Assembly: GCF_030410485.1 (NCBI RefSeq)
Contig: NZ_JAUHHC010000001.1
Location: 744,001-808,000, forward strand
Direction of reading: 5' to 3'
Source of the DNA: Roseateles violae
GTDB taxonomy: Bacteria; Pseudomonadota; Gammaproteobacteria; Burkholderiales; Burkholderiaceae_C
Length of the DNA: 64,000 nucleotides
The position numbers and the translations under genes were made by a program. Below are positions 999 to 57,983 of the stretch, piece after piece. The stretch's first letter is position 1. Every line of letters begins with the position of its first letter. The notes beneath the pieces were generated by a model. It had not been told where the DNA came from. It saw only the letters and a program-made list of their open reading frames with translations, and did not search any database.

Positions 999-1544
999 TC
1001 AGGTGGCCGCGGCGGCGCGCCGGGACTGCAGCAGGAGGGCTGCTGCGAATGCCGTCTCGATGGCGGCGCCGGCAAACGCGGCCAGATGCGGCGGCGCCTT
1101 GGCCGCCGCCAGCAGATAGCCGGCCAGGGCCAGCGCCGCGCCGCAGGCCCAGTAGCTGCGCAGGCCGTACAGGGTCTGGAACGAGAAATAGCGGCCGCCG
1201 ATGAGCAGCAGCATTGCCGGAAAGAACCACGGCATATGGTGCTGCGCCACCGCATAGGCGAGCGGCAGGCCGAGGATCAGCCAGGCGGTGCTTTCCAGGG
1301 CCAGCGCGCCGAGCGGGTTCGATTTCGCATGCCGGCCGGGACGCCCCAGCGCCCTGCACAGCAGCACGCCCAGCGGATGGATCAGCATGCCGCCGGCGAA
1401 CAGGGCCAGCACCGCGCCGGCCGGCGAGCCCCATAGCGCGACGGCGCCGGCCACCAGCCAGGCCAGGGCCGAGGCCAGCATACCGGGCGCGCCCGACAGA
1501 TAGGAGCGCCGCATATCGGCTTGCGCGTCGTCGAGACTATTCAT
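999..1544 (-). CDS. Multi-pass membrane protein of unknown function (DUF7010-like)
   Basis: 181 residues with about five or six hydrophobic segments (near residues 22-58, 83-101, 107-117, 131-147 and 152-173). Features such as MRRSYLSGAPG near the N-terminus and YGLRSYWACG around residue 125 resemble the DUF7010 family. That match is from memory and tentative. No catalytic motif is visible. It lies upstream of cutA on the same strand. Confidence 0.8.
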   Translation of the reverse strand: MNSLDDAQADMRRSYLSGAPGMLASALAWLVAGAVALWGSPAGAVLALFAGGMLIHPLGVLLCRALGRPGRHAKSNPLGALALESTAWLILGLPLAYAVAQHHMPWFFPAMLLLIGGRYFSFQTLYGLRSYWACGAALALAGYLLAAAKAPPHLAAFAGAAIETAFAAALLLQSRRAAAAT

Positions 1545-1578
1545 GGAGGTCCGAGATAACGATGGGGTGGGCGCGCGC

Positions 1579-1977
1579 TCAGCGCCACAGGCCGATGATC
1601 AGGCCGTAGAGCGCGAACTGCAGCGTGTGGTAACCGCCGTCGATCAGCCAGAGCGTGGTGCTGCGATTGGCGAATTGGTAGTTGATGCCGAAGCTGGCCG
1701 CGACGATCGCCGCCCCGACGAGCAGGCCCTGGCCGAGCGCGATCGCCGCCGAGGCCGGCGGCGCGATCAGCAGCGCGTAGGCGATCGCGCTGAACAGCGC
1801 AAAGATAAGGCTCAGGCCGAAGACCCGGGCCGGGTGCGCCTTGTCGCCCGGCTTGCGCGTGTCGCCGGCCTCGCGCTGCCAGACGGTGCCGAACAGGGCC
1901 GGCGAGTACCAGAGCCCGCCAATCATGAAGCTGGAGACGGCGGCGACCAGGACGGCGAGGAAATTGATTTGCGACAA
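1579..1977 (-). CDS. DUF1761 family membrane protein (TTG start)
   Basis: 132 residues with four hydrophobic segments. The opening SQINFLAVLVAAVSSFMIGG followed by LWYSP is the DUF1761 signature; the family is found in many bacteria and its function is unknown. No ATG precedes the conserved region, so TTG at 1977 is the likely start, supported by GGAG about 9 bases upstream on the minus strand. The next gene downstream, the DUF7010-like protein, begins 34 bp away on the same strand. Confidence 0.85.
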   Translation of the reverse strand: MSQINFLAVLVAAVSSFMIGGLWYSPALFGTVWQREAGDTRKPGDKAHPARVFGLSLIFALFSAIAYALLIAPPASAAIALGQGLLVGAAIVAASFGINYQFANRSTTLWLIDGGYHTLQFALYGLIIGLWR

Positions 1978-2129
1978 GAAGCGCTCCGGGATTCGAACAA
2001 GAAGCCGCCATTAGGGCCCGAGCCGGGCCGGTGCACAAGCGGGAGAGCCCTGCCGGCACCAAGCAGCTGGCCTGCGGTCTCGTGCTCGGTGGAAAGATGG
2101 CGCGGCTTGCACCAGCGCCGGAGCGCTGA

Positions 2130-2708
2130 TCAGCGCAGCGATGAAGACGACGACGATAGCGATCCGCTCAGCAGCCGCTCCAGTTCCGCCGTCGTCGCGG
2201 GCTCGGCGCCCGCCGCCGACAGCGCGGCATTGACCTCGGCGCGGATCGCTTCGGCGCTGCGGCCCTCGGATGGCCAGGTGCCATGCGCGTCCTGCGCCAG
2301 GCGCACGCGGTAGCCCAGCGCCAGCGCCGCGCGGCTGGTGTTGCTGACGCAGAACTCGCTCTGCAGGCCGCAGATCACCAGCTCGTCGGCGCCCTGCGCC
2401 TTCAGCCGGGCGTCCAGATCGGTGTTCTCGAAGGCGCTGGACGCGTACTTTCGCAGGGAGCTCTCGCGCGGCCCGCCGTCCGGCTGCAGCGTCTCGTGCA
2501 GCCGCCAGTGCTCGGTCGCTTCCTCGAACACTTCGCCGGCGACGTTCTCGCTGTGCTGGACGAAGACGATGGTCCGCCCGCCGGCACGCGCCGCGTCGAG
2601 CAGACGCCGCGCATGGCCGAGCAGGCGTTCGGGCGCATCGATGGCCGGGCAGCGGACGCCGTCGAAGGCGCCGCGCTGCAGGTCGATGACGAGGAGGGCG
2701 GTGTTCAT
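2130..2708 (-). CDS. Isochorismatase-family cysteine hydrolase
   Basis: 192 residues. The family triad is visible: D9 in VIDLQ, K87 in LRKYASSAF and C120 in the GLQSEFCV nucleophile loop. Members hydrolyse isochorismate, nicotinamide, ureidoacrylate or other amides through a cysteine nucleophile; this sequence does not decide the substrate. The C-terminus ends in a run of six serines encoded by a TCG repeat, probably a disordered tail. It stands alone, divergent from nothing obvious, with yigZ 68 bp upstream on the same strand. Confidence 0.9.
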   Translation of the reverse strand: MNTALLVIDLQRGAFDGVRCPAIDAPERLLGHARRLLDAARAGGRTIVFVQHSENVAGEVFEEATEHWRLHETLQPDGGPRESSLRKYASSAFENTDLDARLKAQGADELVICGLQSEFCVSNTSRAALALGYRVRLAQDAHGTWPSEGRSAEAIRAEVNAALSAAGAEPATTAELERLLSGSLSSSSSSLR

Positions 2709-2776
2709 GGTCGCGGCCTTCGGTCGAATGAGCAGCGAGTGTCGGCCAATTCGGGCCGGGCGTGCCGACCAGCCTC

Positions 2777-4573
<1,797 letters not shown>

Positions 4574-44484: not shown

Positions 44485-47004
44485 TCAGCGAGCGCTCGGC
44501 ACGAAGTCCAGCACCCGCATCGCCGTCGCCAGGCCTTGCCGCCCGGCGACGGCCTTCATTTCGGCCCAGGGATCGCTCTTCAGCGCCAGGCGCTCGCCGA
44601 TATTGCGCAGATGCCAGTGGGCGCCGCTCGTCAGGGCGTCGAGCTCGTCCCAGGCCACCGGCACCGAGATGCCGATGCCGGGTCTTGCCCGCGCCGACCA
44701 GGCGCAGGCCGTCGTCGCGCCGCGGCCATTGCGCAGATAGTCGATGAAGATCTTGCCGACGCGGTTGCGCGGCCCGCTCTTGACGACGAAGCGCTGCGGC
44801 AGGGTGGCGGCCAGGTGCGCGACGATCGCGCGCGACAGGCCCTTGACCTCGGCCCAGCCGGGCCCGCGGCGCAGCGGCACCAGCAGGTGCAGGCCCTTGC
44901 CGCCGCTGGTCTTCAGAAAGGCCTGCAGCTGCAGCTCCTGCAGCAGCGCGCGCAAGAGCGAGGCCGCCTCCTGGATCTGCGGCCAGGCGACGCCCTCGCC
45001 GGGGTCGAGGTCGAAGAACATGCGGTCCGGCTGCTCGATCGCGTCGCTGCGGCCGTTCCAGGTGTGCAACTCCAGCACATTCATCTGCACCGCGCCGAGC
45101 AGGGCCCGGGCGCTGTCTATCTCCAGCAGCGGCGCGTGGCCGGGGTCGAGCTTGGGGTCGAGCTGCTTCAGGCCCGGGATCTTCAGCGTGTCGCCATGCT
45201 TCTGGAAGAACAGCTCGCCACCGACGCCATCGGGCCCGCGCACCAGCGAGACCGGCCGCTGCTTCAGATGCGGCAGCATGCGCGCGGCGGCCGCCGCGTA
45301 GTACTCGGCCAGCTCCAGCTTGCTGATGCCGCTGGACGCGTCGATGACCCGCGTCGGATGGCTCAGGCGCAGGCCGGCCGGCAGCGCGGCCCTGGCCGGC
45401 GCCGCGGCGGCGGCGCGTTTGCCTGCCGGCGCCGGCTGCTGCGGCCGCTCGCGCGTGATCGCGGCGGCCGGCTTGTCGCCGCGCAGGCCGTGGAAGACCG
45501 CATGCCGCACCCGGCCCTCGCGCGTCCATTCCGAGAACGAGATCTCGGCCACCAGCTTGGGCCGCACCCAGTGCACGCCGCGCTGGTCGGGTGGCGGCGG
45601 GTTCAGGGTCGGCTTGGCCTGGGCCAGCTCCTGCAGCCGCTGCGCCAGCTCGCGCAGTGCGGTGTTGCCGAAGCCGCTGCCGACATTGCCGGCATAGCGC
45701 AGCGCGCCGGCCTCGTCGTGCACGGCCAGCAGCAGGGCGCCCAGGCCCTGGCGGCTGCCCTTGGGGTCGGTGTAGCCGACGATGACGAATTCCTGCCGCT
45801 GGGTGCACTTCAGCTTGATCCAGTCGCTGCTGCGGCGCGACTGGTAGCGCCCATCGGCGCGCTTGCCGATCAGGCCCTCCATGCGCAGCTGGCAGGCGGT
45901 GTGCAGAAGATGCTCGGGCGCGACCGCGAAGTCCTCGCTGAAGCGCAGCGGCGGCGCGGCCTCGCGGAGCAGTTCGCGCAGCGCCGCGCGGCGCTCGGCG
46001 AGCGGCGTCTCGCGCAGGTCGCGGCCGGCATGGAACATCAGGTCGAACAGGTAGTAGAGGATGTCGCCGCTGCGCGCCGCCTCCAGGCTGTTCTGCAGCG
46101 CCTGGAAGTCCGGCGCGCCCTCCTTGTCCTGCACGACGATCTCGCCGTCCAGCCAGGCCGTGCCCAGCTGCAGCCGCGTGATCGCGCGTGCCAGCGGCTT
46201 CAGCTTGGCCGTCCAGTCATGGCCGTTGCGGGTGAACAGGCGCACATCCTCGCCCTCGACGCGGGCCAGCAGGCGGTAGCCGTCGAACTTCAGCTCCCAC
46301 TGCCAGCCGGCCTCGCGCGGCGCCGCCTCGACCAGGGTGGCCAGCTGCGGCGCCAGGCTCAGCGGCAGCGCGTCCTGCTTGGCCTTTTTCGCTGTCTTCT
46401 TCCGCTTCACTGCTGGGGTGGCGGCCTTGCCCAGCACGCTGTCGGGCAGCGCCTCGACGATCGAGTAGTCGGCGGCCGGCCGCGCGTCGTCGTCGCGTTC
46501 CTTGATCAGCAGCCAGGGCGGCTGGCGCTCGCTGGCGCGCCCGTGCATGCGCACCAGGGTCCAATGGCCCTGCAGCTTCTCGCCGCGCAGCTCGAACTTG
46601 AGCTTGCCGGCCGCGTAGGCGGCGCGCGGATCGCCCTGCGGCAGCCAGACGCCGCGGTCCCAGACGATCACCGTGCCGGCGCCGTACTGGCCCGGCGGGA
46701 TCACGCCCTCGAAGCCGGCGTAGGCGAGCGGATGATCCTCGACCTGCACCGCCATGCGCTTGTCCTGCGGATCGAGGCTGGGCCCCTTGGGCACGGCCCA
46801 GCTCTTCAGCGTGCCGTCCAGCTCGAGCCGGAAGTCGTAGTGCAGCGCGCGCGCCGCATGCTTCTGCACGACGAAGCTCAGTGCCTGGCCGGCCTGGCCG
46901 CGCGGCGCCTTGGCCGGCGGCCCGCCGGCCGGCTCGCGGGTCTGCGCGAAGTCGCGCTTGCGGCGGTATTCCTGCAGGCCATCGGAGCGCTTCTCGGCCG
47001 CCAT
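44485..47004 (-). CDS. ligD: Multifunctional DNA ligase D
   Basis: 839 residues with three domains in the order phosphoesterase, ligase, polymerase. The 3'-phosphoesterase domain (about 20-195) has ALHYDFRLE with H55 and D57. The ATP-dependent ligase domain (about 215-525) has nucleophile K239 in KFDGYR. The primase-polymerase domain (about 555-839) has metal ligands D665 and D667 in FFDLDPG. It repairs double-strand breaks with Ku by end joining. It begins 3 bp after ku, so the two are translated together. Confidence 0.98.
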   Translation of the reverse strand: MAAEKRSDGLQEYRRKRDFAQTREPAGGPPAKAPRGQAGQALSFVVQKHAARALHYDFRLELDGTLKSWAVPKGPSLDPQDKRMAVQVEDHPLAYAGFEGVIPPGQYGAGTVIVWDRGVWLPQGDPRAAYAAGKLKFELRGEKLQGHWTLVRMHGRASERQPPWLLIKERDDDARPAADYSIVEALPDSVLGKAATPAVKRKKTAKKAKQDALPLSLAPQLATLVEAAPREAGWQWELKFDGYRLLARVEGEDVRLFTRNGHDWTAKLKPLARAITRLQLGTAWLDGEIVVQDKEGAPDFQALQNSLEAARSGDILYYLFDLMFHAGRDLRETPLAERRAALRELLREAAPPLRFSEDFAVAPEHLLHTACQLRMEGLIGKRADGRYQSRRSSDWIKLKCTQRQEFVIVGYTDPKGSRQGLGALLLAVHDEAGALRYAGNVGSGFGNTALRELAQRLQELAQAKPTLNPPPPDQRGVHWVRPKLVAEISFSEWTREGRVRHAVFHGLRGDKPAAAITRERPQQPAPAGKRAAAAAPARAALPAGLRLSHPTRVIDASSGISKLELAEYYAAAAARMLPHLKQRPVSLVRGPDGVGGELFFQKHGDTLKIPGLKQLDPKLDPGHAPLLEIDSARALLGAVQMNVLELHTWNGRSDAIEQPDRMFFDLDPGEGVAWPQIQEAASLLRALLQELQLQAFLKTSGGKGLHLLVPLRRGPGWAEVKGLSRAIVAHLAATLPQRFVVKSGPRNRVGKIFIDYLRNGRGATTACAWSARARPGIGISVPVAWDELDALTSGAHWHLRNIGERLALKSDPWAEMKAVAGRQGLATAMRVLDFVPSAR

Positions 47005-47007
47005 CGC

Positions 47008-47850
47008 TCAGGCCTTCTTGCGCTTGCTGCCGCCCGCGCCCCCTGAACCGCTCTTGCCGGCCGCCAGGCTGCGCTTGAGCAGATCGGTCAGGTCGACGAC
47101 ATTGGAGCCGCTCTCCTCGCCGGGCGTGGCCTCCAGCGGCGTCACCCGCTTGGTTTGGCCGGCCTCGGCCTTGGCGGCGATCAGCGTGCCGATCGCGGCC
47201 TTGAACTCGTCGTGGTAATCGTCGGCCTGCCACTGCGTCTTCATCTCCTCGATCAGCTGGCGCGCCATCTTCAGCTCGGCGTCCTTGATGCCGGCGGCGC
47301 TCTTGCCTTCGGCCGGAAACTTCAGCTCGTCCCAGGGCCGGATCTCGTCCGGCCAGCGCAAGGTGTTCAGCAGCAGCGCCGGGCCGCTGGGGATCAGGGC
47401 GGCCAGGTGCTGCTTGTTGTGCATGACGACGCGCGCGATGCCGATGCTGCCGTCGGCCAGCATCGCCTCGCGCAAGAGCGCATAGACCTTGGCCGCCTTG
47501 CCCAGCGGCTCCAGATAGAAGGGCCGCTCGAGGAAGAGGAAGGGAATCTCGGCGGCGGTCACGAAGGCCTCGATCTCTATCGTCTGCGTCGTTTGCGGAT
47601 AGGCGGCCTTGATCTCCTCGTCGCTGATCAGCACATAGTCGCCGTCATCCTGCTTGACGCCCTTGACGATGTCCTCCTTCTTGATCGCGCGGCCGGTGCG
47701 CTTGTTGATGCGCTGGTAGCCGACCGGGTCCATCGAGCGCTTGTCCAGCCAGTCGAAGTCGATATCGTCCTCGCGCGTGGCGGGGTACAGCGCCACCGGG
47801 ACGTGAACGAGGCCGAAGCTGATCGCGCCCTTCCAGATGATGCGTGCCAT
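47008..47850 (-). CDS. ku: Non-homologous end-joining protein Ku
   Basis: 280 residues, the usual bacterial Ku size. The start ARIIWKGAISFGLVHVPVAL is diagnostic, with YQRINKRTGR near 45 and the core beta-barrel bridge region after. The C-terminus is Lys/Gly/Ser-rich (GGAGGSKRKKA), fitting DNA binding and LigD recruitment. It binds broken DNA ends as a dimer. The middle gene of an SDR-ku-ligD operon, 14 bp after the SDR. Confidence 0.98.
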   Translation of the reverse strand: MARIIWKGAISFGLVHVPVALYPATREDDIDFDWLDKRSMDPVGYQRINKRTGRAIKKEDIVKGVKQDDGDYVLISDEEIKAAYPQTTQTIEIEAFVTAAEIPFLFLERPFYLEPLGKAAKVYALLREAMLADGSIGIARVVMHNKQHLAALIPSGPALLLNTLRWPDEIRPWDELKFPAEGKSAAGIKDAELKMARQLIEEMKTQWQADDYHDEFKAAIGTLIAAKAEAGQTKRVTPLEATPGEESGSNVVDLTDLLKRSLAAGKSGSGGAGGSKRKKA

Positions 47851-49122: not shown

Positions 49123-50673
49123 ATGCGGCGCCGCATCCGTATCGTTGCCCTGGGCATCATGCTGGCGATCGGCAGTACGCTGCTCGCCCGGCTGGTGCTG
49201 CTCTATGCCTCCTGGCAGATCGCCCTGCAGGGCGAGATGGAAGTGCTGACGCAGACGGCCGGCCATCTGCTGCGCCGCGCCAGCCGCTCGGTCGAGGCCT
49301 CCGAGGCGGCCTTGCGCGAGATCGACGTCGCGGGCTTCACCCCCTGCTCGAGCGAGCACATCGCGCGCATGCGGCTGCTGACGATGAACGTCCGTACGAT
49401 CGAAGAAATCGGTTACTTCGACGCACAGGGCCTGCTGCGCTGCACCTCCTGGTGGCCGACGGATCGGCGGATAGCGCGCACGCCGGTCGACTTCGAGCGC
49501 GCGGACGGCATCGGCGTCAAGGTGACGGCGCGGCCCAGGGTCTCGGGCGGCAATTCGATGATGGAGCTGCGCTGGGGCCATCACAACGCCCTGTTCGATC
49601 CGGAGCGCCTGGTCGACCTGATCGTCGGCCGCCGCGACCTGAGCCTGGTCGTCGCCAACGAGCAGGGGCGGGTGATCCAGGCCTCGAAGGAGGCGGCGCC
49701 GGCGCTGCTGAGCGGCATCCCGCAGCGCCCCGAGCGCGGCATCGACGGCGACCTGATGTATGCGGTGGCGCGCGGCGACGGCTGGATCGCGCTGGTCGGC
49801 GCCTCGCGCGCGGCGGCGGTCGAGCGGCTGCGGGCGCAGCAGGCGCTGCTGCTGCCGGTCGGGGCGGCGCTGGCGATAGGCATGAGCTGGCTGGCGGTCT
49901 GGCTGTCGCGTCGCCAGCTGTCGGAGCTGGCGCAGCTGCGCCGCGCGGTGCAGGCGCGGGCCTTCGTCGTCGAGTACCAGCCGCTGATCGATCTGGCCAG
50001 CCGGTGCTGCGTCGGCGCCGAGGCGCTGGTGCGCTGGCGGCGCTCCGACGGCAGCCTGACGCGGCCCGATCTCTTCATCCCGCTGGCCGAGGAGCATGGG
50101 CTGATCCAGGCCATCACCGACCAGGTGATGGCGGCCGTCGTCGCCGAGCTGGGCGAGCTGCTGCGCAGCGATCCGAACGTGCATATCGCGATCAATCTGG
50201 GGGCCGACGACATCCGCAGCGGCCGCTTCCTGCCGGTGCTGGACCGGCTGCTGCAAGACAGCGGCATCGCGCCGCAGCAGGTCTGGCTGGAGGCGACCGA
50301 GCGCGGCTTCGTCGACGTCAGCTCCGCCAGCAGCGTGATCGAGCAGGCCCGGCGACGCGGGCACAAGGTGGCGATCGACGATTTCGGCACCGGCTTCTCC
50401 AGCCTGCAATACCTGCAGGGCCTGCCGCTGGACGCGCTGAAGATCGACAAGTCCTTCGTCGACGTGCTGGGCCGCGAAACGGTGACCAGCTCGGTCGTCC
50501 CGCACATCATCAGCATGGCCAAGACCCTGGGCCTGGCCATCATTGCCGAGGGCGTGGAGACGCAGGCGCAGCTCGACTATCTGCGCGCGCAGGGCGTCGA
50601 CGGCGGCCAGGGCTGGCTGTTCGCCAAGGCGATGCCGGCGCCGCAGTTCATTGCCTATCTGCGCCGGGGCTAG
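49123..50673 (+). CDS. CSS-motif c-di-GMP phosphodiesterase (PdeC-like)
   Basis: 516 residues. TM1 (8-30) and TM2 (about 242-262) flank a periplasmic CSS domain with C75-SS and C107, a cysteine pair known in E. coli PdeC to control activity through disulfide state. The EAL domain has E300-A-L-VRW, NLGADDI, EATERG, IDDFGTGFSSL and EGVETQAQ, all catalytically complete. It hydrolyses c-di-GMP, opposing the three cyclases encoded 12-15 kb away. ATG 49123 is preferred because AAAGGGGG precedes it. Confidence 0.94.
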   Translation: MRRRIRIVALGIMLAIGSTLLARLVLLYASWQIALQGEMEVLTQTAGHLLRRASRSVEASEAALREIDVAGFTPCSSEHIARMRLLTMNVRTIEEIGYFDAQGLLRCTSWWPTDRRIARTPVDFERADGIGVKVTARPRVSGGNSMMELRWGHHNALFDPERLVDLIVGRRDLSLVVANEQGRVIQASKEAAPALLSGIPQRPERGIDGDLMYAVARGDGWIALVGASRAAAVERLRAQQALLLPVGAALAIGMSWLAVWLSRRQLSELAQLRRAVQARAFVVEYQPLIDLASRCCVGAEALVRWRRSDGSLTRPDLFIPLAEEHGLIQAITDQVMAAVVAELGELLRSDPNVHIAINLGADDIRSGRFLPVLDRLLQDSGIAPQQVWLEATERGFVDVSSASSVIEQARRRGHKVAIDDFGTGFSSLQYLQGLPLDALKIDKSFVDVLGRETVTSSVVPHIISMAKTLGLAIIAEGVETQAQLDYLRAQGVDGGQGWLFAKAMPAPQFIAYLRRG

Positions 50674-51122
50674 GCCGGCCCCGGGGCGGCGGCGAGGTGC
50701 AGGGGTAAAACAAAAAGCCACCGTGAAAGTTCCGGCATGTCCTGACCGGAAGTAAGGCAGTTGCTGGCGAAACTTGGCCGGATCCTTCACCCCTTCCGCG
50801 ACGATTTCACCCAATAAGTGGCACCGCTTGAAGCCTGTGCAGTAGTAAGTGGCGAATTTTGGAGCACCGAGCGTTTCTCCAATGAGGTCGGTGTCAAGTT
50901 CGCGGCAGCCATTTAATCGGTTCTCGACCCCAGCCTCTACGGGCTAGCAAGTCCCGCCAAGTATCCCTACCAGCGCGCGTTCGGGACTGACGGATCGAAC
51001 TTCTGAGCCGCTCCCAGCTGTCGAGAGATTGAATTCGCTCCAGGCCGCGGCTGATCGCGCTGGCTCACTTCGTGAGCGAGCGCGATGCGACCATCTTCTC
51101 GGTGGGCTGTGGCGGCATTGCT
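50674..51122. other. 449-bp non-coding junction at the left edge of the accessory island
   Basis: No gene with protein-like composition spans this stretch; stops break all frames. GC is visibly lower than in the flanking core genes. A GCTCAC-TTC-GTGAGC stem lies at 51063-51077, near the 3' end of the XRE gene. On the minus strand a few fragments look like decayed protein (around 50740-50920, near GETLGAPKFATYYC), but I cannot assign them. No tRNA or clear integrase site is seen. Confidence 0.5.
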
Positions 51123-51410
51123 TCAGCCGCTCCTCTTCGACTTGGCTAGTTCCAGCTGGCGCGTGGTGCTTCTGCTGAGATTCAAAGCCGTCTCTATCGG
51201 ATCGGCTGGATCAATGCCGGCCAACTGTGCAGCTATCGCACTTAGGCAGTGGTTGATCACCTTGGTAGGTGCGCCGAGCTTCTCGTTTTCGTAGCGCGAC
51301 AGGCATGAGCGGCTGATCTTCAAAGCCTCAGCGAAATCCGCCTGCGCCCTGGTGCCGCGGGCCCGCTTGATCAACTCACCTTGCCGGGTTGGAAAGGTCG
51401 AACTATTCAT
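51123..51410 (-). CDS. XRE-family (helix-turn-helix) repressor
   Basis: 95 residues from ATG 51410; longer starts to 51521 would run into the operator and the divergent gene. The HTH is residues about 8-45: QGELIKRARGTRAQADFAEA and then LKISRSCLSRYENEK. The rest is a short helical tail ending KSKRSG. Small solitary XRE proteins beside toxin-antitoxin or defence genes usually repress them. It is divergent from ietA over 88 bp with a repeat-rich control region. Confidence 0.88.
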   Translation of the reverse strand: MNSSTFPTRQGELIKRARGTRAQADFAEALKISRSCLSRYENEKLGAPTKVINHCLSAIAAQLAGIDPADPIETALNLSRSTTRQLELAKSKRSG

Positions 51411-51416
51411 CGAATC

Positions 51417-51451
51417 ATTGTTGCTACTATCGAACAATAGTGCAACAATAG
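51417..51451. promoter_or_regulatory. Operator-like repeats between the XRE gene and ietA
   Basis: An imperfect palindrome pairs ATTGTTGCTACTAT (51417) with ATAGTGCAACAAT (51437), one base missing in the right arm. In addition AACAATAG occurs at 51433 and 51444, spaced 11 bp, about one helical turn. This is a typical site for an XRE dimer. Confidence 0.65.
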
Positions 51452-51498
51452 CACATATGTCCCAGGGCTCGGCCCTAACATGCGCGACGGGAGAGAAC

Positions 51499-52482
51499 AT
51501 GGCACGAGCCGAACAGATCAAGGCGCTCTTTAGGGCCTACGCCGGCAATGAAGATGCGCAGTTCATCTCGGTCGCACTGCAGGTTGCCGCCGAGGAGGCG
51601 CGACGTGGACACTCAAAGCTTGCAGCCGAACTTCGCGAACTGATCGAAACAGCTCGCGCGCCTGCAGCACCCCGCGCCAGAGCCAGGACGTTGCCGCTTG
51701 TTCAGCCTCGGGGCGAACTTGCCGAGTTACTGACGGCGCATTACCCGCAGCAGCATCTGAAGCAAATGGTGCTGTCGGCTGAGGTCGAGCAAAAGCTCCA
51801 GCGCGTCCTGCGGGAGCAACGTCAGCACGAACGCCTCATTGGCCATGGACTGTCCGCGCGGCGGAAGTTGCTTCTGGTTGGGCCGCCAGGTACTGGCAAG
51901 ACGCTGACGGCCGCCGTTCTGGCGACCGAGCTGAAGCTTCCGCTCTTCACGGCGCGTTTTGACAGCCTCATCACAAAGTTCATGGGTGAGAGCGCTTCGA
52001 AGCTCCGCCTGGTGTTCGAGGCGCTGAAGTCCACCCGCGGCGTCTACCTCTTCGACGAGTTCGACTCGCTAGGCCTGCAGCGAGGCAGCCAGCATGACGT
52101 GGCCGAGATGCGGCGTACGCTGAACATGTTCCTCCAGCTCATTGAGCAGGACGCTTCCGACAGCGTGATCGTGGCGGCGACGAACCACGGCGCGTCGCTC
52201 GACTCGGCCCTGTTCCGCCGCTTCGACGACGTCATTCGATATACCGCCCCCGATGATCTGCAGATCGAGGAACTACTCCGCAATCGCCTGACGCTGATGG
52301 CGCCGCCGAACATGTCCTACGCTGGCTTGGTCGCGCATGCTCGTGGCCTGGCGCACTCCGACATCGTGCGCGCGTGCGAGGACGCCATCAAGGACTCCGT
52401 CCTTGAGGAGCAGGACCAGGTCAGCGAGCAAAGCGTCGTACTGCATCTGAAGGAACGGGCGGCGAGTCAGTTGCACCAATAA
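51499..52482 (+). CDS. ietA: AAA+ ATPase, IetA-like subunit of an IetAS (Gao_Iet) system
   Basis: 327 residues from ATG 51499, with GGGAG upstream. The first 100 residues are helical and may bind the partner. The AAA core has Walker A GPPGTGKT (128-135), Walker B VYLFDEFD (182-189), sensor-1 N229 in VAATNH and an arginine-finger-like RRF (about 241). It lies 51 bp ahead of a subtilisin-like protease gene. That pair matches IetA/IetS, first described on an Agrobacterium Ti plasmid as affecting stability and incompatibility, and later found in anti-phage screens. The assignment rests on domain pairing, not a search. Confidence 0.8.
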   Translation: MARAEQIKALFRAYAGNEDAQFISVALQVAAEEARRGHSKLAAELRELIETARAPAAPRARARTLPLVQPRGELAELLTAHYPQQHLKQMVLSAEVEQKLQRVLREQRQHERLIGHGLSARRKLLLVGPPGTGKTLTAAVLATELKLPLFTARFDSLITKFMGESASKLRLVFEALKSTRGVYLFDEFDSLGLQRGSQHDVAEMRRTLNMFLQLIEQDASDSVIVAATNHGASLDSALFRRFDDVIRYTAPDDLQIEELLRNRLTLMAPPNMSYAGLVAHARGLAHSDIVRACEDAIKDSVLEEQDQVSEQSVVLHLKERAASQLHQ

Positions 52483-52504
52483 GGGGCAGGTCTTGCGTTA
52501 CATT

Positions 52505-52530
52505 GGGTTAACGACATAACGCGTTAACCC
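52505..52530. promoter_or_regulatory. Perfect 9-bp inverted repeat directly before the ietS start
   Basis: GGGTTAACG, eight bases, CGTTAACCC, ending 3 bases before ATG 52534. A TAACGCGTTA palindrome (52518-52527) overlaps its right arm. No Shine-Dalgarno is seen between this repeat and the ATG. As RNA the stem would cover the start region; as DNA it could be an operator. Confidence 0.55.
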
Positions 52531-52533
52531 GAC

Positions 52534-55068
52534 ATGGCAGACCTCGACCATTTGCTCGTCTCTGGTTTCACCCAGGACCGACCGTTCAGGTCGAATCTGT
52601 CAGGGCGCAGCGGTGCATCGCCGCAGCGAAACCGTGGTCCGCATGGGAACGCACTGCTGCGCCAGCTCGAATTGATGCGCCTGAATTCCGAGCAACTGTC
52701 TCGAGAGCGCAGAGAGCGGGGCTTCGATGAAGCCGCAGGGATGACGATCGCGATCCAGTTCTCGCCAGCCGCCGACTACGACTACATGTTGTTGGAGTGG
52801 AAGCGTGATGGCGTGGAGGTGCTCAGCGTCGTCGACTCGGGGGCCGGCCCCGTTGTCGCCGTTTATGTGCCCGATGGCAAGCTGACCGCACTAGAGAAGC
52901 GTGTTCGGGAATACCTCAACGAGGACACCAAGACGGGCAAGCCGAAGAATGCCAAGTTGGTGAACTCGATCGATGGGATTCGCCGGGCCGCCTTCGAGCA
53001 GCTTTGGACTGAAGACGAGCCAGCACCGGTGCAGCTTGACGAGGTGCGCTGGTATCAGCTCTGGATCCGCCATGGAGGTCGGATCGCCCGCGACGTCGCC
53101 ATGGACTTTGCGGCCGCGGCCGAGCCGTTGCAGATCGAGGTCGAGCCTGGATACGTGAACTTCCCCGGCCGCGTTGTGCTGGCGGTTCGCAGCACGCGGC
53201 GTGCACTGGAGCAGGCGATGACGCTTCTCGACGTGATCGCGGAGATACGATCAGTTCAGCCCAGCGCCGAGTTCTTCCTCTCCAATCTGGCACCGCGTGA
53301 ACAGGCGAACTGGACGCAGGACTTGCACGGCCGCTGCACGTTCGAGGTGCCCGATGCAGGCCCCTATGTCACCTTGTTGGACACGGGCGTGAATCACGGC
53401 CACCTGCTGCTGCGCGATGCACTTTCCGCTGCGGATGTTCATGCCGTCATGCCTGCATGGGGCGGCGCCGATCACGACGGGCATGGGACCGAGATGGCCG
53501 GCCTTGTTTGCCACGGCAATTTGATGGACGCCTTGGCTGCCACCGGCGGAATCGCGATTCCCCACCGACTGGAGTCGGTCAACATCTTCCCGCCTCAAGG
53601 TGTGAACCCGCCGCACCTGTACGGCTGGGTCCTCGCGCAGGCGGTTGACATCGTAGAGACGCACCGCCCGCAGAGGCAGCGCGTATTCGCAACTATGACG
53701 ACCGCGATTGGTCCGGGAGCGGGCAAGCCCAGCGAATGGTCGGCCGCGATTGATCAGATGGCGTTCGGTCTCAACGGTCTGGTGCCGTATGCCAACGGCG
53801 TCGACTGGTCGCCTGGTGGCCTGCGTCCGCGGCTGTTCGTCCTGTCGACAGGCAACGTGCCGTGGGTGGGCTGGAACGCCTATCCGACCATTAACCAACG
53901 GACTTCGGTCGAAGATCCAGGGCAATCGTGGAATGCGCTGACCGTCGGCGCTTGCACCCACTTCACCGACGTGGATCGTGTCAAATGGCCGACTGCGGTG
54001 CCGATTGCCCAAGAAGGCGGACTAAGCCCCGCATCGACCACCTCACTGCTATGGGCGAACTCGTGGCCGATCAAGCCGGATGTGGTGGCCGAGGGCGGGA
54101 ACGGTTCACTCGATCCGCTGCCCCATGTCACCGTCGGGCCGGAGAGTCTGCGCGTGCTGACGACATCCCATCAGCAGCATGACTCACCGTTCGCTGAAAG
54201 CGGCGACACGAGCGCCGCAGCTGCCGAGGTCGGACGCATCTGCGGCCACCTGCGCGCCCAGTACCCGACGTATTCGGAGTCGACCATCAGGGCGCTGGTT
54301 GTCCACGGCGCCAGGCACACCCCTCTGATGCGGGCGCAGTTGCCGCTCAATCACGACAAGGCGGATATCAAGAATCTGCTGAGGACCTTCGGGTTCGGCA
54401 AGGTCTCGTTACCCAACTCTTTGTACTCCAGCGAGCACGCGCCTACGTTGGTGATTCAGGACACCATCGTCCCGTACAAGGCCGTGGGCAGCGCCATTCA
54501 GCTGAACGAACTCAAGCTGCATGAATTGCCCTGGCCGGCGGATGTGCTGCGGGCGCTGGGTGGTACGACCGTCGAGATGCGTATCACGCTCTCGTACTTC
54601 ATCGAGCCGAACCCGAGTCGGCGCGGTTGGCAGAGCAAATTCCGTTACCAGTCGCATGGGCTGCGATTTGCCGTTAAGGGCGCGACCGAGACTGAGGCTC
54701 GATTCAATCAGCGGATCAACAAGGTAGATCGCGAGGAGGCGGAACTCGACGGTGACGAATCAATGCCAGACCCGGATCGCACGGCCTGGGAGGTCGGAGC
54801 GCAGTTGCGGTCTCGCGGATCGCTGCATTCCGACGTCTGGACCGGCACAGCCGCGGCCCTGGCGGAGAAGTCCCACGTCGCGGTGTTCCCAGTCGGTGGG
54901 TGGTGGAAGGACTGGAGCGGAAGCAATCGCGCCGGCGTCCCCGTCGGGTACTCGCTGATCGTTTCGATACGCCCCGTGGATGCCATCGCGGCCGAGATCG
55001 ATCTGTACACCCCGATACGGACGGCGATCGCTGTAGCCAACGAAATCGAGATCGATACGCAGCCCTAA
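52534..55068 (+). CDS. ietS: Subtilisin-like (S8) serine protease, IetS-like subunit
   Basis: 844 residues. The catalytic triad is complete: D283 in TLLDTGVNHGH, H317 in HDGHGTEMAG and S560 in ESGDTSAAAAE; oxyanion N441 is in LSTGN. Residues 1-270 are an extra N-terminal region with no signal peptide, so it acts in the cytoplasm. Residues about 640-844 are a C-terminal extension of beta-rich type. In IetAS the ATPase is thought to partner the protease in defence. No clear ribosome site is present (see the inverted repeat upstream). Codon use is more mixed than in the core genes. Confidence 0.85.
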   Translation: MADLDHLLVSGFTQDRPFRSNLSGRSGASPQRNRGPHGNALLRQLELMRLNSEQLSRERRERGFDEAAGMTIAIQFSPAADYDYMLLEWKRDGVEVLSVVDSGAGPVVAVYVPDGKLTALEKRVREYLNEDTKTGKPKNAKLVNSIDGIRRAAFEQLWTEDEPAPVQLDEVRWYQLWIRHGGRIARDVAMDFAAAAEPLQIEVEPGYVNFPGRVVLAVRSTRRALEQAMTLLDVIAEIRSVQPSAEFFLSNLAPREQANWTQDLHGRCTFEVPDAGPYVTLLDTGVNHGHLLLRDALSAADVHAVMPAWGGADHDGHGTEMAGLVCHGNLMDALAATGGIAIPHRLESVNIFPPQGVNPPHLYGWVLAQAVDIVETHRPQRQRVFATMTTAIGPGAGKPSEWSAAIDQMAFGLNGLVPYANGVDWSPGGLRPRLFVLSTGNVPWVGWNAYPTINQRTSVEDPGQSWNALTVGACTHFTDVDRVKWPTAVPIAQEGGLSPASTTSLLWANSWPIKPDVVAEGGNGSLDPLPHVTVGPESLRVLTTSHQQHDSPFAESGDTSAAAAEVGRICGHLRAQYPTYSESTIRALVVHGARHTPLMRAQLPLNHDKADIKNLLRTFGFGKVSLPNSLYSSEHAPTLVIQDTIVPYKAVGSAIQLNELKLHELPWPADVLRALGGTTVEMRITLSYFIEPNPSRRGWQSKFRYQSHGLRFAVKGATETEARFNQRINKVDREEAELDGDESMPDPDRTAWEVGAQLRSRGSLHSDVWTGTAAALAEKSHVAVFPVGGWWKDWSGSNRAGVPVGYSLIVSIRPVDAIAAEIDLYTPIRTAIAVANEIEIDTQP

Positions 55069-55131
55069 GACAGTCGCTCATGGAGCATCGTCATCTGGTT
55101 CTCCCCAGTATGACTGGTCGAGCGGTACACA

Positions 55132-55365
55132 TCATCGCGACTCCGCCTCGATGCGTGCGCTGGTGGCGGCCACCTGCCGCCGCAGGATTTCGTCATATTC
55201 GCTGGCGATCTGCAGCAACTCTTCGATCCTGCGAATCGTCGTACCGAGCACCGAGTACTCCGCCTTGTCAGCGATGCTCGGGTTCGATGCGCGGAGTTCC
55301 AACGCGGCCCTCAACTCCGTGGCTCGGCGGATGGAATCGAGGATCTGGGCGGGCGATCGGCTCAT
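55132..55365 (-). CDS. Small helical protein of unknown function
   Basis: 77 residues, mostly charged and helical with coiled-coil-like spacing (DSIRRATELRAALELR; IRRIEELLQIASEYDEIL). No known domain. It is convergent with ietS and divergent from umuD across 78 bp, so its promoter lies close to the LexA box. It could be a further component of the island or an unrelated passenger gene. Confidence 0.6.
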   Translation of the reverse strand: MSRSPAQILDSIRRATELRAALELRASNPSIADKAEYSVLGTTIRRIEELLQIASEYDEILRRQVAATSARIEAESR

Positions 55366-55435
55366 AGGGCGTCTCCATCCGAAAGGCTCGGGGCACAGCC
55401 ATCTGATCCTAGAACCAATTCGTCAATGCACTAAA

Positions 55436-55451
55436 CTGTATATATGTACAG
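55436..55451. promoter_or_regulatory. LexA (SOS) box upstream of umuD
   Basis: CTGTATATATGTACAG matches the CTGT-N8-ACAG consensus exactly, with the TA-rich core. It overlaps the first ATG of umuD, so the annotated start may be downstream (TTG 55456). SOS induction of umuD is therefore very likely. Confidence 0.92.
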
Positions 55452-55887
55452 TGTATTGCCGTCGAGCGCACCGACGCCGATCTTGAATCTGGCACCGGCG
55501 CTGGTGTTCGCGCTGCCCAACGGAGTGTCGGCCGGCTTCCCCTCGCCGGCGGAGGACCTGGGGGCGAAGCGCATCGACCTGAACGAGATCCTGATCAAGC
55601 ACCCGCTGGCCACCTACACCCTGCGCGTCAGCGGCCAGTCGATGCGAGACGCTGGCATCGATGACGGCGACGTCGTGCTCGTCGACCGCGCCGTGAAGGC
55701 TGCCCACGGGCACATCGTGGTGGCCGTCGTCGACGGCGAGTTCACCATCAAGCGCCTGTTCCAGCGGCATGGCCGGATCAAGCTGCAGGCCGCCAACCCG
55801 ACCTACCCGGACATCGTGCCCGGCGACGGCCAGACGATCGAGATCTGGGGTGTCGTGCGCCACTGCATCAAGCCCATGCCGGTCTGA
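55444..55887 (+). CDS. umuD: DNA polymerase V subunit UmuD
   Basis: 147 residues if ATG 55444 is used; TTG 55456 is more plausible because the ATG is inside the LexA box. The S24 core is intact: the cleavage site is A30-G31 in VSAGFPSPA, the nucleophile is S66 in SGQSM and the general base is K103 in FTIKRLF. RecA-filament-stimulated self-cleavage would give UmuD'. It is followed 9 bp later by umuC, which is truncated, so the protein may lack its polymerase partner. Confidence 0.93.
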   Translation: MYSVLPSSAPTPILNLAPALVFALPNGVSAGFPSPAEDLGAKRIDLNEILIKHPLATYTLRVSGQSMRDAGIDDGDVVLVDRAVKAAHGHIVVAVVDGEFTIKRLFQRHGRIKLQAANPTYPDIVPGDGQTIEIWGVVRHCIKPMPV

Positions 55888-55896
55888 GGCGATGCC

Positions 55897-56214
55897 GTGT
55901 ACGCGCTGGTCGATGGGAACAATTTCTATGTGAGCTGCGAGCGGGTGTTCCGCCCGTCCTTGAACGGCCGGCCGGTGATCGTGCTGAGCAACAACGACGG
56001 CTGCGCCATCGCGCGCAGCAACGAGGCCAAGGCCATGGGCGTCAAGATGGGCGAGCCCTGGTTCCAATGCAAGGGGCTGGAGGCCAAGGGCCTGGTGGCT
56101 CTGTCGGCGAACTTCGAGCTGTACGGCGACCTCAGCGACCGCATGATGAGTGCGGATTCAATCGGTCGACGCAACAGAGAGGCTGAACATTTCAGCCGGT
56201 GTTCGGTAGCCTAG
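55897..56214 (+). pseudogene. umuC: umuC, truncated after about 85 codons
   Basis: The first 85 or so codons are a good UmuC N-terminus: MYALVDGNNFYVSCERVFRP with catalytic D6, then GCAIARSNEAKAMGVKMGEP and a segment ending NFELYGDLSDRMMS. From about codon 86 the frame enters an IS30-type fragment, reads 20 unrelated residues and stops at 56214. A whole UmuC has about 420 residues with the palm, thumb and little-finger parts, all missing here. I find no downstream remainder. The product should be inactive as a polymerase. Confidence 0.9.
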
Positions 56215-56222
56215 CGTCTTCC
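56150..56222 (-). mobile_element. IS30-type transposase C-terminal remnant
   Basis: On the minus strand the frame reads RKTLGYRTPAEMFSLSVAS, then TD and a stop at 56158. This is the characteristic end of IS30-family transposases (pattern RPRKTLG-TPAE-F-VA-TG). The short stretch beyond, towards 56150, GGATTCAATCGGTCGACGC, is probably the element's terminal repeat at the point where it entered umuC. The rest of the element is missing. Exact edges are uncertain. Confidence 0.7.
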
Positions 56223-56600
56223 TCGAGCTCCGCGCGCGTCCAGTGGCCGCCACCGGCCCCACCCATGCGGGCCCGGGCTTCATCCCGTAGCTTTCGGCGG
56301 CACTCTTCCAATTTCGCGTTCGGCACGCGTGTCCGCTGCTTACAAGGCCACCCATTCAAGGTTGGCGCAGCGCCTGATACAGCCGGATGTATGCCGCGAC
56401 TTCGCGCGCCGGGAGGCAAGGTGGTGCGGAGGCCGTGAGTGACGCCACTGGCTCAACGGCGTCCCCGCGCATTGATGACCGCTTCCTGCCGACAGGAACT
56501 CACGCAGCCGACCCACTGCTGACCTTCAGTTCGCGGGACTCGCGTCCGGAAAGCAGTCGTTCAACTTCCAAGTTCAGCGGGCCCCTCGACGGGGCCGCGA
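56223..56600. other. 378-bp non-coding or decayed region after the IS remnant
   Basis: No intact gene is seen. Short frames occur on both strands but none matches a family I know. The right end carries the hairpin noted at 56580-56596. It may be leftover island DNA joined by deletion. Confidence 0.45.
56580..56596. terminator. GC hairpin at the MFS gene 3' end
   Basis: GGCCCC, TCGAC, GGGGCC. A second stem, GGCGGGC-TATAG-GCCCGCC at 56605-56623, lies inside the last codons of the MFS gene. Neither has a long T-run, so termination strength is uncertain. Confidence 0.45.
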
Positions 56601-57983
56601 TCACGGCGGGCTATAGGCCCGCCGGCCGCCCAGCGCCCTAAATGGGCGTAGCAGCCAGCAATAGATTAGGGCGGAGGCCGCGGCCAGTGCGCCGCTGGCG
56701 ATGAAGGTGTGCTCATAGGACTGCCCCGTCAGGTCCAGCCAGCCTCCCATCAGCGGCGGCACCAGCGTGTAGCCGAGCGCCGAGAGAAGGTTCGCTGCCG
56801 ATTGGAACTGCGCGAAGCGATCACGCGGGAACAGGTATTGGCCGATTGCGGCCACGCCTGTGACATACAAGCCGGAAAGCACGCCGTGCGCGACGAAGGC
56901 CACAGCAAACTGCGACGCATCGCGGACCAAAAATCCGGCCGGAATCATGGTGGCGGCATACAGGGCAATGCTGCCCAAACCGACGTTCAGCGGATGCCAG
57001 CGGTCCGCCAACCAGCCAACCGGCAAGGCCAACACCAGCGAGCAAGTAAAGGTGAGCGCCAAGGCCTTGCCATAGCCATCGAGCCCCAGCCCGATCTTCT
57101 GTGCATAGAAGACGCCGAAGTTGTTGACCGGGCTGAACGAGATCAGTCCCAGCATCATCGCAAGGAACAGTCCGACGTAGAAGCGGTGGCTGAAGCATTC
57201 GCGCATATAGCGCTTGATCTCCGCGGATCCCTCGGTGGTAGCTGGCGGGGGCGGCGGGTAGCTGCCCTCGCGCACGCGCCAGCACATCAACAGGAATCCG
57301 AGCCCGTAGATCACGGCGACTCCGATGAAGATCGCCGCGAAATACTGCGCGGCCTTGCCGACAATGCCGTAGGTGAAGGCGATTCCGGCCAGCAGACTGA
57401 TGACCCGGAACATGCCGTAGAAGCGGCCTGTCAGGCTGTCGGGGACGACGTCGGCGATCAGGCCGGTGAACACGGCGTTCGCCGTCACCGAGGCGAGTTC
57501 GAAAAGGCACCACATGATGGCGAACCATCCCAGCGTGCACCAACGTTGGCCCGGCGATGTGGTGCCCAGCAATGCGTGCAGTAGCTCACCGGCCTGAGGC
57601 GTGAAGGCCATGCCGAGCAAGCCCAGCACCAGCACCGGCGTCGGCAGCAGCAGGAAGGGAATTCGTCGTCCCCACCGGCCGCGATGGCGATCGGAGCGCA
57701 CGCTGATGATGGGCCCCAGCAGCATGCTCAGCGCCCATGGAAGCGAGCCAACGACCAGGGCAACGAAGAAGTTGCTCGCCTCCTGTTGTTTGAGGAAGAC
57801 CTGCGCCACTGGCATGACTGCTCTTTCCTTGACGCTCCAGGCGAAGTCGCCGATCAGCAGAAATATGAACAGCGTGAACAGGCCACCGGCGCTGTAGATG
57901 AGAGTGCCCCGCTTCCACCGGCGTCCACCGAGACTGGCCTCGATGAGGACCGGAGACTCACGAGGGATTTCAGTCGTTGTCAT
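56601..57983 (-). CDS. MFS sugar/oligosaccharide transporter
   Basis: 460 residues with about twelve membrane segments. The loop after helix 2 has RSDRHRGRWGRRIPFLL (D-R-x-G-R-R type), like GPH/MelB-related or SLC45-type sugar carriers; another is the LADRWHP motif in the second half. Divergent from lacI over 214 bp with a LacI-type operator between them. With KduD, GH88 and the TonB receptor it likely imports the unsaturated uronate-containing product made outside or in the periplasm. Confidence 0.9.
   Translation of the reverse strand: MTTTEIPRESPVLIEASLGGRRWKRGTLIYSAGGLFTLFIFLLIGDFAWSVKERAVMPVAQVFLKQQEASNFFVALVVGSLPWALSMLLGPIISVRSDRHRGRWGRRIPFLLLPTPVLVLGLLGMAFTPQAGELLHALLGTTSPGQRWCTLGWFAIMWCLFELASVTANAVFTGLIADVVPDSLTGRFYGMFRVISLLAGIAFTYGIVGKAAQYFAAIFIGVAVIYGLGFLLMCWRVREGSYPPPPPATTEGSAEIKRYMRECFSHRFYVGLFLAMMLGLISFSPVNNFGVFYAQKIGLGLDGYGKALALTFTCSLVLALPVGWLADRWHPLNVGLGSIALYAATMIPAGFLVRDASQFAVAFVAHGVLSGLYVTGVAAIGQYLFPRDRFAQFQSAANLLSALGYTLVPPLMGGWLDLTGQSYEHTFIASGALAAASALIYCWLLRPFRALGGRRAYSPP

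Follow-up and report, generated by a model that had tools for sequence, protein, structure and literature searches.

The window analysed here is a stretch of 64,000 nucleotides from Roseateles violae (contig NZ_JAUHHC010000001.1, positions 744,001 to 808,000), and the subject is a three-gene module in which a small gene for an XRE-type regulator (xre) lies divergent from two consecutive genes, ietA for an AAA+ ATPase and ietS for a subtilisin-like protease. The pair is a real, divergent IetAS with a shared repressor-operator cassette, and it is the control region that is new. The features, in coordinates of the window, are as follows.

51123-51410, minus strand: xre, encoding a 95-residue XRE-type helix-turn-helix protein from an ATG; predicted repressor of itself and of ietAS.
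51421-51435, no strand assigned: predicted operator site 1, TTGCTACTATCGAAC; 9.8 bits, the second-best match in 64 kb.
51440-51454, no strand assigned: predicted operator site 2, GTGCAACAATAGCAC; 17.7 bits, the best match in 64 kb; 19 bp from site 1.
51499-52482, plus strand: ietA, encoding a 327-residue classical AAA+ ATPase from an ATG; predicted antitoxin.
52488-52544, plus strand: predicted RNA structure of the ietA-ietS spacer, with an 11-bp stem (52503-52513/52522-52532) and an outer stem.
52534-55068, plus strand: ietS, encoding an 844-residue S8 subtilisin-like protease without a signal peptide; predicted toxin.

Homologues exist for all three proteins and, together with the family matches, are more than chance would give. 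An earlier note on this DNA, made from the letters and their translations, had proposed an IetAS copy, and hidden Markov model searches bear this out. IetA matches the PADLOC IetA model PDLC02196 at 7.9e-70 over residues 4-322, three more IetA models and Pfam AAA; IetS matches the PADLOC IetS model PDLC02198 at 9.6e-33 over residues 274-834, with its N-terminal 270 residues outside the match, and Pfam Peptidase_S8. Among the 40 related loci recovered by a genome scan (designated L with a number), ietA immediately precedes ietS in 35 and an ietA fragment is present in one more, L032; L010, L030, L038 and L040 have no ietA, the stretches of L010 and L030 beginning within about 170 bp of the match. 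Because the PADLOC models match both proteins and the two genes adjoin in those 35 loci, the reverse of the outcome that the note had named as fatal to its proposal, the pair can be regarded as a genuine but divergent IetAS. In a further genome of the same family (L047, G255), ietS at 1471-3864 has no ietA match in the 1.5 kb of upstream sequence examined. Of 299 genomes from the same family, 13 contain IetS at E <= 1e-50, and IetAS relatives occur in 479 plasmid records, 56 IMG/VR contigs and 2 phage records, a distribution that fits a mobile trait.

Gene order and kinds of protein are the same as in IetAS of Agrobacterium Ti plasmids, where IetS is the toxin and IetA the antitoxin. The Ti pair at L062 (pTiCFBP1935), which is recorded as ATP-binding protein and S8 family peptidase and which we read as ietAS, is 50.2% identical to the window pair for IetA and 35.4% for IetS, over nearly the full length; it has no XRE and its genes stand 4 bp apart by frame, whereas the window has an XRE and a 51-bp spacer with a hairpin. 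Two other pairs, sgiAT (S025/S026) of SGI1 (PMC5006074) and the AAA-ATPase/subtilisin-like T133/A132 (TA132/3) of mycoplasma (PMC8562856), share the scheme of an AAA ATPase with an S8 protease toxin and are likened here by their descriptions. In the excerpts of these papers, the protease is toxic alone and is neutralised by the ATPase; the same excerpts mention no XRE-operator cassette, unlike the window. The earlier note, though it named the ietA-ietS pair, had omitted these toxin and antitoxin roles. The excerpt of PMC11878078 connects IetAS with resistance to phage in Pseudomonas Pf prophages and also states that its mechanism remains unknown, and a phage link is given in that of PMC10286901. 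Because relatives are toxin-antitoxin pairs and IetAS has been linked with phage resistance, IetA may, by analogy, be read as restraining a cytoplasmic subtilase.

The translation of IetA confirms that the ATPase divergent from the small XRE gene has, as the earlier note had it, intact Walker A (GPPGTGKT, 128-135) and Walker B (VYLFDEFD, 182-189) motifs, and it contains ATN at 227-229 and FRRFD at 239-243. All 26 rows of an IetA alignment keep Walker A and B, the ATN sensor and FRR, and all 26 have an aromatic residue (F or Y) at 161 in the pore loop. Since M1 is likewise invariant, a longer ORF from a GTG at 51352 is not supported. Structure searches of IetA mostly covered residues 69-327, and a PAN/FtsH-like ring is predicted.

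In IetS the triad D283, H317 and S560, which the note had called intact, occupies invariant columns in 70 aligned sequences. No hydrophobic N-terminus was found, the best 19-residue Kyte-Doolittle mean being -0.25 among segments starting at residues 1-45, in agreement with the reading that a signal peptide is absent. The first 270 residues, previously a large region of no known fold, are now predicted as two beta-alpha-beta-beta-alpha-beta units. Residues 172-240 have the predicted strand order beta-alpha-beta-beta-alpha-beta, though an Inhibitor_I9 pro-domain is not detectable by sequence: no Pfam I9 match was obtained at E <= 10, and when profiles were compared with those of nine I9 domains the probabilities were 0.1 and 1.2. 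A sequence search of the PDB at 0.01 yielded no chain matching IetS; structure searches mostly covered residues 244-640. In the best 120 of 1089 matches, the precomputed domain PF27160 appears beside PF00082. Overall, IetS is predicted to be a KP-43-like subtilase whose catalytic domain is preceded by two small folded units and followed by a beta domain.

These architectures bear on an alternative division of labour, in which IetA would be a sensor and motor that threads phage proteins into IetS, as PAN and FtsH feed a protease, and IetS would be harmless alone. The toxicity of the unaccompanied protease in SGI1 and mycoplasma, and its neutralisation by the ATPase, stand against such a scheme. 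So does the lack of a visible degradation-chamber partner, IetS being a subtilase of one chain whose N- and C-terminal parts are folded, and we consider the scheme improbable.

At 16 further loci (L002-L009, L011-L013, L015, L034, L037, L039 and L043) an XRE homologue is encoded divergently from ietA. A 16-row XRE alignment keeps a QxxL...RG...SRYE core invariant, and identity among the 17 IetAS loci falls to about 39-55%; the Pfam HTH_31 and HTH_3 matches of the window protein are both below cut-off, and its 95-residue ATG version was adopted over a 132-residue ORF that begins at a far-upstream TTG. An IetS tree was built from 58 of 99 usable sequences, comprising every non-viral row and 11 viral rows; all 17 loci with XRE fall inside one fork of 19 rows (SH-aLRT 100), of which the other two are L001, with upstream DNA devoid of XRE, and L010, where the contig begins inside the gene. 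No XRE match above 60 bits was obtained at any other locus, 56 viral ones included, and none was confirmed in viral contigs.

A palindromic 15-mer with the consensus TTGCTATAATAGCAA was learnt unsupervised from the xre-ietA gaps of 15 loci other than the window; its width and palindromic form were picked after all gaps, including that of the window, had been viewed, so that only the matrix is window-free, and four of the 15 training loci (L007, L012, L013 and L034) are near relatives. The motif totals 366.6 bits over the 15 gaps, compared with 170.7-193.5 bits in eight shuffled sets. When all 64 kb of the window were scanned with it, sites 2 and 1 were its two highest-scoring matches. With leave-one-out matrices, for which site positions were learnt from all 15 loci, the gap holds the best motif match of its locus in 14 of 15 cases and the second best in L008. 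When the search is extended into the start of xre, a second site stands 18-20 bp away in all 17 XRE-IetAS loci, scoring at least 8.5 bits in 16 of them, with L006 lacking one by score (-0.7); a motif neighbour of at least 5 bits at 15-45 bp is found for 21 of 3000 random window positions. The palindrome has 0-4 mismatches in 16 xre-ietA gaps versus 5-8 at best in 19 control upstream regions, so loci without xre are also without the palindrome. A pattern drawn from the two window sites has exact matches in its own genome only at those sites. A third, weaker motif match, GTGCAGCTATCGCAC, lies inside xre at 51227-51241 (7.1 bits, rank 4 in 64 kb). A linked XRE regulator of ietAS is thus supported by 17 loci and a common operator motif, and the placing of paired palindromes between divergent genes points to a repressor covering both promoters.

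Instead of simply repressing, XRE might activate, or might work as a timed on/off switch in the manner of a controller protein. The unequal strength of the two sites and their 18-20 bp spacing between divergent genes are what such a switch might use, and VpxR, an Xre-family protein of a Vibrio CRISPR-associated transposon, is described in the excerpt of PMC12150760 as autoregulating in a CI-like manner and repressing other promoters. Against this, the TATAAT-like core in the stronger site of several relatives (TTGCTATAATAGCAA) would, on a reading of the sequence, block RNA polymerase, not help it, and we judge an activating role rather unlikely. The excerpt of PMC11406308 describes repression and zygotic induction for RtaC/RtbC, the Xre regulators of I-F3 CRISPR transposons; by these descriptions, RtaC/RtbC and VpxR are, like homologues of the window protein, small regulators of the Xre family associated with Tn7-like elements that carry tniQ. 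The I-F3 regulators may serve as precedent for the switching logic, which is distinct from a shown kinship to the window XRE. BrxR/WYL regulators, as excerpted from PMC9122601, are likewise encoded beside defence genes and bind DNA, but belong to a different protein family. In open-licence PMC literature we found no description of an XRE repressor of IetAS, or of its sharing with tniQ.

A second level of control is suggested by the 51-nt ietA-ietS spacer, whose 11-bp predicted stem ends one base before the ietS ATG; when the first ietS codons are included, the start codon falls in a loop closed by the second, outer stem, with a fold energy of -25.5 kcal/mol (z -4.32; 0 of 200 shuffles as stable). 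Across the spacers of 16 loci, L039 (9-nt spacer) and L043 being left out, the mean z is -1.82 and 13 lie at z <= -1; three nearby coding controls give +0.60, +0.25 and -0.11. As the ietA and ietS frames of non-XRE loci mostly touch or overlap, the long structured spacer goes with the XRE clade. The hairpin is predicted to hide the ietS start codon, such that less protease than ATPase would be made.

The XRE-palindrome set extends beyond IetAS. XRE was found in 9 of 299 same-family genomes, beside IetAS in 2, before tniQ in 4 and with neither in 3, and in 1 of 274 genomes of the class, 5 of 399 of the order and 1 of 398 of the phylum, the own genome being counted in each, as in the family count; at most 12-18 candidates were scored per genome, so misses are possible. 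At L139-L142, XRE precedes a TniQ-domain gene in the same direction, and a TnsD-family gene is also present in L139, L140 and L142; no CRISPR gene was noticed in these four stretches, though no search aimed at one was made. The best match per stretch to the IetAS-trained motif is just upstream of XRE (17.8, 17.8, 16.0 and 19.6 bits, in order). A second site stands 19 bp away in L139 and L140 and 20 bp away in L142, whereas L141 has no clear one. In L141 (93-4579), XRE and tniQ are divergent from N6-methylase and type I restriction R-like genes. The regulator that the earlier note described as the module's own and dedicated is therefore linked to ietAS, as the 17 loci and their operator motif indicate, but 'dedicated' goes too far: in four other genomes a homologue with this motif in front of it stands before tniQ, and strict IetAS specificity is ruled out.

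The two settings meet in L006, where the distance between XRE-IetAS and genes for TnsD/TniQ, TniB (TnsC), TnsA and a TnsB-like protein is 1.1 kb, the Mu-type transposase C-terminus of the last being just under the Pfam cut-off. L015 (TniB and a TnsB-like piece) and L039 (TniB) have Tn7-type genes near IetAS in part. In the 64-kb window, tblastn gave no match with the TniQ/TnsD proteins from L139-L142 (at 1e-3) or with the L006 tnsABCD-like proteins (at 1e-4). Judged by such genes nearby, IetAS would be Tn7-like transposon cargo in L006 and, less fully, in L015 and L039, but not in the window. A tree of 87 XRE rows over 98 columns requires 4 changes for the iet rows and 3 for the tniQ rows, and thus does not give the direction of cassette exchange. 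Weaker XRE matches at L143-L145 and L147-L150 represent another group, L143-L145 splitting off at 100/97. In L143 and L147-L150 the distant XRE stands just before a gene for 246-251 residues starting M..QS.IEWTEQTWNPTTGC, which we take to be phage Gp37/Gp68-like, and within this group the best motif match is just upstream of xre only in L143 (10.2) and L144 (12.2).

It might be proposed that xre is a remnant from a Tn7-like element and has ceased to act on ietAS, given the use of the same XRE family by tniQ, the Tn7-type genes near IetAS in L006, L015 and L039, and the lack of tblastn matches to such genes in the window. Neglect would not, however, preserve a divergent layout and paired palindromes in 17 loci down to about 39-55% XRE identity, and we hold the proposal to be very improbable. 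One kind of switch may serve both phage defence and jumping DNA. A more extended version, conceivable and on balance doubtful, is that a portable XRE switch with paired 15-bp palindromes 19-20 bp apart is traded between Tn7-like transposons, where it would gate the target selector TniQ, and IetAS, where it would gate immunity, entry into a repressor-free cell triggering a burst of jumping and of protease defence or addiction until the repressor settles it. If so, IetAS of the XRE clade would be a defensive cargo that responds to the same signal by which the transposon's arrival is marked.

The best reading of the window is an IetAS toxin-antitoxin/defence module under a repressor-operator cassette shared with Tn7-like transposons; its repression, toxicity and phage defence are what we infer. 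That a divergent IetAS pair, likely an antitoxin and a toxin with an anti-phage role, is held down by the divergent XRE at the two palindromes before ietA seems to us moderately probable. IetS would then be under two brakes, with XRE limiting transcription and the hairpin limiting translation of ietS. In a settled host, XRE dimers on the two sites would silence both ietA and ietS, and entry of the module into a new cell, or loss of XRE, would give a burst of expression. IetA would hold IetS in check until infection upset IetA or the balance, whereupon IetS would cut cytoplasmic proteins and stop the cell or the phage.

Several observations weigh against parts of this reading. The NCBIfam equivalogs for anti-phage IteA and IteS are matched significantly (NF042959 at 6.5e-59, NF042956 at 4.3e-12), yet the window pair is far below the curated cut-offs, with 199.9 of 510 and 45.1 of 900 bits, the best IteS stretch covering residues 434-647 only. 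The assignment made in the earlier note therefore holds for the IetAS family at large, and the pair is outside the narrow tested equivalog group. L001 (55% IetS) has no XRE match upstream of ietA, so xre is not needed by every clade member. Allowing one mismatch, the operator pattern occurs 10 times in its own genome and the reversed control 11 times, and a sigma-70 promoter scan of 51300-51600 found none. The spacers of L006, L009 and L015 (3 of 16) show no unusual hairpin, that of L039 is only 9 nt, and several Xanthomonadales (Lysobacter-type) loci have the hairpin at the ietA stop, not at the ietS start.

The surroundings are consistent in part with the accessory island that had been suggested. 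At about position 50500 the guanine plus cytosine (GC) content drops from about 0.70 to 0.62, and it remains low as far as the window's right-hand edge. The patchy occurrence of IetS (13 of 299 family genomes) and a GC content of 0.62 in the module region, against 0.70 for window 1-45000, favour an island; against it, the 9 kb to the right of the module are also low (0.635), no tRNA was found in the 64-kb window, and no direct repeat in 50650-57000 has a copy left of 51123, so the island has no demonstrated borders. To the right of ietS lie a 77-residue ORF without Pfam match (55132-55365, minus strand) and a UmuD-like S24 peptidase gene (55444-55887, plus strand; feature span 55444-56214). 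The 105-residue ORF that follows matches the IMS (UmuC-type polymerase) domain, 148 positions long, at positions 1-81 alone, and umuC therefore looks cut short. To the left, two adjoining minus-strand genes at 44485-47850, presumably encoding LigD and Ku of end joining, sit 3-4 kb left of an EAL-type gene that adjoins the module. Among 131 called proteins neighbouring 16 loci, PADLOC matches included Drt2 and PtuA (2 members each) and ThsA and a type I methyltransferase (1 each); the scan, with 25 of 271 families listed, was without background control, and no enrichment of defence genes is therefore claimed.

IetAS is widely listed by defence finders, and a clade with a built-in repressor, a mapped predicted operator and a hairpin over the toxin start offers a handle by which to switch it on and off, and also lets the toxin/antitoxin ratio be measured. 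Repressor-operator control of the predicted kind would account for the silence that a defence island can show in the host where it resides, and the same repressor-operator set before tniQ would link the control of protease defence with that of Tn7-like transposition.

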